A stretch of 64,000 bases of DNA from Agromyces sp. ISL-38 (GTDB lineage: Bacteria > Actinomycetota > Actinomycetes > Actinomycetales > Microbacteriaceae), in contig NZ_JAGGPF010000003.1 of the NCBI RefSeq assembly GCF_018613935.1, positions 1 to 64,000 on the forward strand, given 5' to 3'. The notes under the pieces were generated by a model. It worked only from the letters and a program-made list of their open reading frames with translations. It was not told the DNA's origin and searched no databases. Both the position numbers and the translations under genes were made by a program. This document shows positions 4,362 to 5,792 of this stretch, piece by piece; within the stretch, counting starts at the first letter, position 1; each line of letters starts with the position of its first letter.

Positions 4362-4503
4362 GGATCGGTCCTCACGCTCGTGGTCGGGGTTCCACTTGCA
4401 CAGTGCTCGGGGAATCCGTCGCGACTCATGATGAGGCGTGAACGAGGGGTGAACGCACCGCGAACGGTGCATACGCCCGGCCGCCACCGGCCGCTCTCCC
4501 GCC

Positions 4504-4561
4504 TCGAAACCGCACTGGTGACCTCCTCGTCAACTCCAACGAGTCATCCGCGCGGATTCGA
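4504..4561. repeat. Flanking hairpin A (19-20-19), downstream of the DUF559 gene
   Basis: Left arm 4504-4522, a 20-base loop, right arm 4543-4561. The left arm matches hairpin B (5668-5686) at 17 of 19 positions and the right arm matches B's at 15 of 19; arm and loop lengths are identical in both. Within A the two arms pair imperfectly. It begins 12 bases beyond the stop codon of the endonuclease-like gene. It could be a terminator, but the shared geometry argues for a repeat family. Confidence 0.75.
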
Positions 4562-4573
4562 CGCGCGGGCGCC

Positions 4574-5614
4574 TCACACAGGGCGGGCCGCATCGAGTTC
4601 GCGGATGCGTGCGGCCAACACGGCGCGCACCCGTGCGATGAAGTCGTCGGTGTCCTCGAACACGTCGTCTGAGACGACCCGGACGACGCGCCAGCCGGCC
4701 GCTTCGAGTGCCTCGCGACGCCGGATGTCATCTCGGAATCGTCTCGCGTTCGTGCGATGCTCATCGCCCTCGTACTCGAACGCGAGACGCAGCGCCGGAT
4801 AGGCGAGGTCGGGATGCAGCATGCGACCACCGGGAACGCGCACACCGATGCCGATCTCGGGTTCGGGCAACCTCGACGCCACGAGGAGCAGCCGCAGGCG
4901 GGACTCGGGCCGCGAGTCGACTCCCGTGCGCAGCCGTTGCAGGGCCCAGGCGATGCCGCGCGCACCGCGTCGACTGCCATGCTCGCGTGCCGCAGCGCGG
5001 AGTTCATCGAGGGTGCACAGCGGCGGCATTCGCCCGCTCCCGCGACGAAGCCGGACACCCGAGATCAGGTAGTCCCCCGCTGCGACCAGGTCCTCGCGGC
5101 TGAGCGTTGCCGCGAGTTCGCACCACGTGCGGGCCGGCGAGCTCACCGGCAATTCCTCGATGAACACGATCGCGGGCCGCGCCGCCGACGTCGAATGACC
5201 GATGACCCCTGCCGTGCGCGGGCCGTCGCCGCCGGCGAACGACGTCACATGCAACGCTCGTGCGGCGTCCGCGGCACCTGCGTCGCCGCCTCCCTCGCCT
5301 TCGGCCGCGGCATCCGCGTCACCTTCGGCCCCGGCGTGTGCTGTTGTATCCGCGGGAGCGTCCGGCTTCGGCAGCGGGATCCCATGGAGCATCCCAGCGG
5401 TTTCATGGCTGAAGTACGCCGATGGACCGAGCCTGGGCAGGTAGGCGCGACAACGTTCACGGATGTCGCGGGGCCGAGCGCCGTCGAGACGCACGCCGTA
5501 GAACGGGCGGGCGAGGTCGGCTCGCCGCAACCGGCTCGCCGGCACATCGAAGTTGCGCGCATCCGCTGGCGTGAAGGCGGTGTTGCGGAGGTGCTGCGGG
5601 AGTGCGTGGACCAT
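4574..5614 (-). CDS. AbiEi-type N-terminal domain fused to a DUF559 (Vsr-like) endonuclease domain
   Basis: A 346-residue protein of a family common in Microbacteriaceae. The N-terminal half resembles the winged-helix region of AbiEi antitoxins (HLRNTAFTPADARNF, then SAYFSHETAGMLHGIPLP). The C-terminal 100 residues are a DUF559/Vsr-like PD-(D/E)XK nuclease fold: HPDLAYP supplies the Asp, LAFEYEGDEHR the E-x-E, and RREALEAAGWRVVRV the closing strand-helix. An Ala/Glu/Gly-rich insert splits the halves. No partner AbiEii toxin gene adjoins it. The start at 5614 is chosen because CAGAAT lies 6 bases upstream, a leaderless-type arrangement; an upstream start at 5668 would overlap hairpin B. Function in the cell is unknown. 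Confidence 0.8.
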   Translation of the reverse strand: MVHALPQHLRNTAFTPADARNFDVPASRLRRADLARPFYGVRLDGARPRDIRERCRAYLPRLGPSAYFSHETAGMLHGIPLPKPDAPADTTAHAGAEGDADAAAEGEGGGDAGAADAARALHVTSFAGGDGPRTAGVIGHSTSAARPAIVFIEELPVSSPARTWCELAATLSREDLVAAGDYLISGVRLRRGSGRMPPLCTLDELRAAAREHGSRRGARGIAWALQRLRTGVDSRPESRLRLLLVASRLPEPEIGIGVRVPGGRMLHPDLAYPALRLAFEYEGDEHRTNARRFRDDIRRREALEAAGWRVVRVVSDDVFEDTDDFIARVRAVLAARIRELDAARPV

Positions 5615-5667
5615 GCGCGCATTCTGCCCGTATCCCGCGGGACGGAGGGAGCATCCTCCACAAGCCA

Positions 5668-5725
5668 TCGAAACCGCACAGATGACGCGCAGGGCGCTCG
5701 GACCTGGTCATCTCTGCGGTTTCGA
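5668..5725. repeat. Flanking hairpin B (19-20-19), upstream of the DUF559 gene
   Basis: Left arm 5668-5686 and right arm 5707-5725 are complementary at 18 of 19 positions around a 20-base loop. It lies 53 bases before the chosen start of the endonuclease-like gene and 67 bases beyond the proS stop. It is the partner of hairpin A at 4504-4561. The TCGAAACC core also recurs in the REP-like element at 25611. Confidence 0.8.
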
Positions 5726-5792
5726 CGCACTCGAGCGCGCGAAGTGGACGCGCGGACCGCGTGAGCACGCGCAAGCGAGCCGCTCGCCGTCG

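Follow-up and report, generated by a model that had tools for sequence, protein, structure and literature searches.

In the REP/RAYT (TnpAREP) systems, REPtrons and REPINs of bacterial genomes, a gene is framed by palindromes whose copies are also dispersed between genes (PMC3733652, PMC3116915, PMC8266576). Paired repeats are read by another type of protein as well: the inverted repeats bound by AbiEi are 23 bp long and separated by 3 bp, and in the pairs bound by Rv2827c the separation is 13 bp, for a total of 59 bp (PMC7319586). The EDxHD homing endonuclease I-Bth0305I, in turn, dimerises on nearly 60 bp (PMC3943268), and a Vsr-type nuclease of the MTES_1575 family is part of the giant HEPN proteins (PMC3710099). 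The locus described here shares features with all of them. It lies in the window, by which we mean the whole 64-kb stretch of DNA that was analysed, and consists of a gene between two palindromes, A and B:

4504-4561, no strand: palindrome A, 19-20-19, 12 bp past the stop codon; degenerate, its arms pairing at 15/19 positions.
5668-5725, no strand: palindrome B, 19-20-19, 53 bp ahead of the start codon; its arms pair at 18/19 positions.
4574-5614, minus strand: the window gene, 346 aa, DUF559/MTES_1575 family, with an AbiEi-like front and a nuclease.

A preliminary description of the locus had claimed two 58-base elements of this 19-20-19 layout flanking the gene, with left arms alike at 17/19 positions, right arms alike at 15/19, B arms complementary at 18/19, and distances of 12 and 53 bases to the gene; all of this held, with both elements at the coordinates listed above. 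The distances run from the end of A to the stop and from the start of B to the ATG at 5614. Homologues support this start rather than the one at 5668, from which a longer ORF (4574-5668) would overlap palindrome B by one base. The genes adjoining the window gene are those of PhoX and prolyl-tRNA synthetase (proS), and no DUF1814 nucleotidyltransferase toxin lies beside it, so that the claimed lack of a toxin partner also holds at this locus.

Palindrome B taken alone is unusual, not unique. A search of the 64-kb window for 19-bp arms with at least 17/19 pairing and a loop of 8-30 returned B, in 4 overlapping registers, as the sole palindrome of its kind. In 30 Markov-1 shuffles the number of registers averaged 0.3 and peaked at 6; three of the shuffles contained one or more, and the best pairing among them was 18/19. 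The strong part of the chance test is instead the existence of the second copy: the arms of A and B match at 32/38 bases, the highest value among 200 shuffles is 26, and A is B's only near copy in the window. Genome-wide (3.72 Mb), the window arm pattern at up to 2 mismatches is found in the four arms and at one further place, with no solo copy of the window's own palindrome in the 3.72 Mb searched; among 199 genomes of the family the exact window-type palindrome occurs in its own genome only, being absent from the 198 others.

The window protein divides into two parts:

4928-5614, minus strand: AbiEi-like part, residues 1-229; the presumed half-site reader, without binding data.
4601-4921, minus strand: Vsr/I-Bth0305I-like nuclease, residues 232-338.

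This architecture, an AbiEi-like front followed by a Vsr/EDxHD-type nuclease, is supported, although as a prediction from a model. The AlphaFold structure (mean pLDDT 84, pTM 0.80, with low pLDDT around residues 31-50 and 90-111) matches in its residues 232-338 the catalytic domain of I-Bth0305I (3r3p, Z 12.3), NGO0050 (11.5) and Vsr (10.7), and in its residues 1-229 the AbiEi antitoxin of Streptococcus agalactiae (6y8q), with a middling Z of 8.6 (rmsd 5.5, 170 aligned). Foldseek against the PDB returned no match at E <= 0.001, and the fold claims rest on a second aligner. At the sequence level, PADLOC AbiEi profiles match the window protein weakly; the MTES_1575 match stays below the Pfam cut-off in the window protein and in 7/7 homologues, and the DUF559 match is above its own cut-off in the window protein as well as in 2 of these homologues. 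Pfam found no HUH/Y1 transposase domain in the window protein (E up to 1) or the 7 homologues (E up to 0.5), and reported no helicase, HEPN or transglutaminase parts in any of them. Residues E237, D269, H286 and D296, which by our own mapping we take to be the EDxHD residues, are invariant in 25/25 sequences. The same two parts had been proposed in the preliminary description, and that claim held, the structure comparison and the AbiEi profiles agreeing with it.

Palindromes frame many genes of this family, with arms that are specific to each locus. Among 70 homologous loci (L032-L101; the 30 best matches plus 40 further ones from the same list, hence not a random sample), a palindrome of 40-75 bp, with a median length of 58 bp, was present on both sides of the gene at 34, on one side at 23 and on neither at 13. 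In control windows shifted by 0.8-1.25 kb the corresponding counts were 0, 1 and 41 (n=42; the other 28/70 loci lacked enough flank). The arms are common to both sides of a locus and differ between loci. A measure that does not depend on palindromes, the score of the best match between a gene's own two flanks, had a median of 25, compared with 11 for displaced windows (maximum 16) and 10.5 when the flanks came from different genes; it exceeded the control maximum at 57/70 loci and the 99th percentile of mismatched loci at 45/70. The window locus itself scores weakly in this blind comparison (14.0 against the control maximum of 16) because its copy A is degenerate.

Beyond this set, the gene family was matched in 111 of the 296 Actinomycetota genomes sampled. 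A named set of 73 loci, drawn from Agromyces, Leifsonia, Microbacterium, Agrococcus, Leucobacter, Brevibacterium, Arthrobacter, Geodermatophilus and others, and reduced to 69 by dropping 4 with short flanks before counting, contained 41 loci scoring higher than any of 66 controls and 28 that did not, the latter including both scorable Agrococcus loci. Among the 30 loci of a phylum-wide search, several likewise had matched flanks and others did not. As a separate observation, three loci elsewhere in the phylum (L347, L342, L350) have longer matched flanks, which resemble terminal inverted or repeated arrays more than they do single palindromes. Ten genomes carry DUF559 genes at one chromosomal site (L033, L034, L036, L037, L038, L042, L044, L046, L062, L155); the flanks of this site are well conserved, most of the genes are more diverged, and the arms differ. 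Distant homologues were found on 3 Arthrobacter plasmid records and 1 phage record; a plasmid search at the DNA level yielded one short match, and a plasmid or phage origin was rejected.

The window gene and both palindromes form a unit, which is missing in a close relative. In G226, the closest relative found (proS C-terminus 98% identical), homology to the window ends at 5780 and restarts at 4493, leaving proS and phoX adjacent without a DUF559 gene and with no inverted repeat above threshold between them. Six more of 30 fetched proS loci (L106, L113, L115, L116, L118, L125) have a PhoX homologue that starts no more than 184 bp from proS and no DUF559 match, and in three of those six a short-loop, terminator-like hairpin occupies that spot. 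The junctions of the window unit carry a candidate target duplication:

4491-4499, no strand: possible but unproven 9-bp target duplication, left copy; the two copies agree at 8/9 positions.
5780-5788, no strand: right copy of the same possible 9-bp target duplication, unproven.

This 9-bp sequence appears twice in the window (8/9) and once in G226. It is one weak case, which leaves a target duplication conceivable at best, and no clear one was seen among the cases examined. In Agromyces cavernae (G254), this position downstream of proS is taken by another DUF559 gene, 42% identical and with different arms, which has a clear palindrome on its upstream side and a degenerate one on its downstream side.

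In families other than the window's, several gene-bearing genomes contain further, solo copies of the locus palindrome away from the framed gene. We looked for four arm families across 60 genomes of the genus. The GAAACC family (GAAACCTTGTGTTCGGTGC, 2 mismatches) matched in 3/60 genomes and comprises 12 distinct palindromes; paired arms are confined to G204 and G221, which are also the genomes that carry its framed gene (L064 and L058, respectively, encoding proteins 87% identical). The GATCC family (GATCCGTCGATCTTCGCCC, searched with one extra leading base and 2 mismatches) matched in 18/60 genomes, with paired palindromes in 8; these 8 hold 29 solo palindromes, whose loops measure 15-17 nt and whose fetched flanks gave no DUF559 match. 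Its cognate framed gene is present in 3 of the 8 (G210, G243, G222) and none was identified in the remaining 5; a brief look at palindrome decay in genomes without the cognate GATCC gene revealed no clear difference. Matches to CGAGTGGGCGANNTTGGC (1 mismatch) occurred in 34/60 genomes, many of them single half-sites and possibly due to chance, and the reversed control also gave scattered matches; framed genes together with solos of this family are found in the window's genome, G237, G223 and G234, the window's genome holding one framed broken gene (L080) and one solo at C3:90039. Finally, GAGTTGCCACTTTCGGCCGC (3 mismatches) matched in 7/60 genomes, including the window's, where it frames a gene (L096) without any solo. 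The window genome thus has three framed genes, each with a different palindrome. Solo copies are few, from 0 to about 8.

Some individual loci deserve a record of their own. The second framed DUF559 gene of the window genome (L080, G000:C24:62044-63168) is broken, with two separate matches and stops, and keeps both palindromes. L233 (G226:C2:28973-29735) lacks about 347 bp relative to its orthologue L096 (G000:C11), and both palindromes remain. At L205 (G200:C1:632942-634055), an alpha/beta-hydrolase gene and not a DUF559 gene lies between two GAGTGGGC palindromes. A different dispersed repeat of about 90-140 bp (G000:C3 near 90.5 kb; L229) has many copies in G000, G226 and G215 and is tandem in G239.

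What is conserved in the solos is the arms, while the loops drift. In 20 pairs of orthologous GATCC solos the arms are 88% identical (671/760) and the loops 50% (139/278, from the 17 pairs of equal length), with near flanks at 39% in an ungapped comparison that understates their identity. Half-site spacing is nearly fixed within each of the four families (mostly 35-36, 36-38, 38-39 and 35-36), degenerate positions occur inside the half-site, and departures from the arm consensus are mostly one-sided (75/89, 16/19, 41/55 and 37/63). Together, the mostly one-sided changes and the near-fixed spacing fit two protein-read half-sites better than an obligate hairpin. A base-paired hairpin as the functional form is accordingly disfavoured, despite arm pairing somewhat above that of shuffles (7, 36, 109 and 0 of 2000 shuffles reach the observed value in the four families). 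Of 44 downstream palindromes, only 1 has a T tract (>=4 T in 8 nt) after it. An RNA family was also considered and rejected, the one Rfam match being at chance level and below the gathering score.

Two solo sites, one preceding an aldehyde-dehydrogenase-like gene and the other an alpha/beta-hydrolase gene, were followed into 60 genomes (30 loci each). At both, the palindrome family differs by species at the same intergenic place, and many species have an empty site. We scored 20 site palindromes against the DUF559 flanks of 40 genomes (21 were picked by eye, G233 being dropped for lack of DUF559 flanks; those of G226, G215, G249, G248 and G229 at the two sites were left out). The own-genome mean was 12.9 versus 9.2-9.3 for permuted assignments (0/5000 as high), and the own genome ranked 1-3 among the 40 for 10/20 palindromes and 13-40 for the other 10. 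Without the two query genomes at their own site, 18 palindromes remained, with 0/5000 and 8 at rank 1-3; without the three probed arm families, 11 remained, significance was lost (387/5000) and 3 ranked 1-3. The link between a site palindrome and the genome's own gene is therefore firm for the three probed arm families and no more than suggestive beyond them. Both reuse of the site and rewriting of palindromes in place are compatible with these data. Two further observations concern the same sites: in several Agromyces (L266, L269, L274, L284, L285, L291) site 1 holds a palindrome family with CGCCACTT/CGCCAGTT arms for which no cognate framed gene was identified, and at site 2 of G226 and G215 (L293, L294) the TCGAAACGTCGCAGATGAC arms resemble the window's at 16/19 by eye, G226 being without the window gene.

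These results lead us to propose a two-part, REPtron/REPIN-like system, formed by a nuclease with an AbiEi-like front and a palindrome of roughly 57 bp that it would recognise. Mechanistically, the palindrome would consist of two inverted half-sites of about 19-24 bp, with a spacing nearly fixed within a family; a protein dimer would probably bind it, each AbiEi-like front reading one half-site, and the nuclease would nick or cut at the bound palindrome. Repair of the break would then copy, restore or move palindromes and, occasionally, the framed gene. The targets would apparently be double-stranded, and the nuclease of the restriction fold. By analogy, we count as support for a dimer on the palindrome the published geometry of AbiEi/Rv2827c and I-Bth0305I, which fits about 57 bp. 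With several intact sites per genome, unchecked cutting would be harmful, and nuclease activity must therefore be limited. We give this reading a probability of about 0.62; binding, nicking or cutting, and spread or movement are inferred, with no experimental evidence. Against it stand the loci framed on one side only (23/70) or on neither (13/70), the 28/69 named loci not above controls, the five genomes that have GATCC palindromes but in which we identified no cognate framed gene, and the lack of solos in the window family.

Relative to the preliminary description, which had suggested a REP-RAYT-style pairing of a nuclease with its own palindromes, the core is supported by the framing, the locus-specific arms and the cognate solos of other families, with cutting and movement unproven. 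Its expectation that gene and palindromes are present or absent as a unit in close relatives held with G226, and its question whether copies cluster around DUF559 genes is answered by the locus-specific framing of homologues, the window's own palindrome having no solo copy in its genome. Its hairpin reading is amended, protein-read half-sites being the better fit. Its proposed refutation, palindromes at unrelated genes, was half passed: solos do adjoin unrelated genes, yet T tracts are rare.

Among alternative explanations, the one that survives best is binding only, which remains possible. Here the palindromes would be operators, the AbiEi-like part repressing its own gene through the palindrome upstream of it and controlling a few others through the solos, and the nuclease acting elsewhere, for instance on invading DNA. 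In its favour, AbiEi and Rv2827c regulate their own genes by way of inverted repeats of 23 bp (PMC7319586), orthologous solo arms are kept, and at the two followed sites solos lie directly upstream of genes. Against it speak the palindrome on the downstream side of the gene, the invariance of the nuclease residues, and the two followed sites, at which many species have no palindrome and others carry one of a different family, unlike a stable regulon.

A homing-like element with scars, in which the framed gene is mobile and inserted by its nuclease, and solos are the remnants after recombination between its palindromes has removed the gene, seems unlikely. In its favour, the unit is missing in G226, the nuclease domain is similar to that of a homing endonuclease, G226 keeps both palindromes around a gene about 347 bp shorter than its orthologue L096, and different elements are found at the same sites. 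However, there are up to about seven solos per genome versus one framed gene of the family, the solos are old and common to several species, and the G226 empty site has no palindrome at all. Ordinary terminators, or unrelated repeats flanking the gene by chance, can be all but excluded: the palindromes are extragenic and copy A directly follows the stop codon, but the loops are long, a matching copy lies upstream, displaced controls are negative, the GAAACC family tracks its gene, and the short-loop hairpin plus T tract of an intrinsic terminator is not met (1/44).

The two-part nuclease/palindrome reading also admits a bolder version, towards which we lean less than away. In it, selfish or domesticated palindromes widespread in Actinomycetota would be mobilised or rewritten by an AbiEi-EDxHD nuclease, REP-like without a HUH transposase; enzyme preference and palindromes would change together, so that each species has its own enzyme's palindrome at the same site. 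The palindrome-gene link gives a testable function to a common actinobacterial gene family, for which we met no assigned role in the open-access literature searched. It would offer a natural set of protein-site pairs whose specificity changes from one species to another, as well as a second, independent answer to the question, posed by REP/RAYT, of how short palindromes persist. The pairing of such nuclease genes with palindromes of their own is not described in the open-access literature we searched (titles and abstract openings; top-ranked results only for the broadest queries).

Compared with known systems, the present one is closest to REP/RAYT, REPtrons and REPINs, in the framing of the gene by palindromes and in the dispersed extragenic copies (dispersal not being met for the window's own family); it shares inverted doublets with REPINs, and with REP/RAYT the families that differ by species and co-evolve with the enzyme (PMC3733652, PMC3116915, PMC8266576). 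Unlike in REP/RAYT, the protein shows no HUH/Y1 transposase domain, the arms act as half-sites with a spacer, copies are few (0 to about 8 solos) and the palindromes inspected lack a GTAG tag. The fold of residues 1-229 and the presumed paired reading of inverted repeats some 23 bp long recall the AbiEi/Rv2827c antitoxins (PMC7319586); unlike in the AbiE type IV toxin-antitoxin, a nuclease follows the AbiEi-like part, and sites are found on both sides of the gene and elsewhere. The modelled nuclease fold resembles that of I-Bth0305I (PDB 3r3p), whose dimer covers nearly 60 bp (PMC3943268), and of Vsr (PDB 1cw0), but the DNA-binding part is different and solo sites remain in the genome; moreover, unlike with I-Bth0305I, the gene sits between two whole sites rather than interrupting one, and the G226 empty site has no palindrome. 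With the MTES_1575 Vsr-type REase of giant HEPN proteins it shares the Pfam nuclease family, at low scores, but it is a small stand-alone protein without their helicase, HEPN or transglutaminase parts (PMC3710099). Each known kind fails a defining feature and we therefore judge the system new in kind, or, on a stricter view, a variety of REP-like systems.
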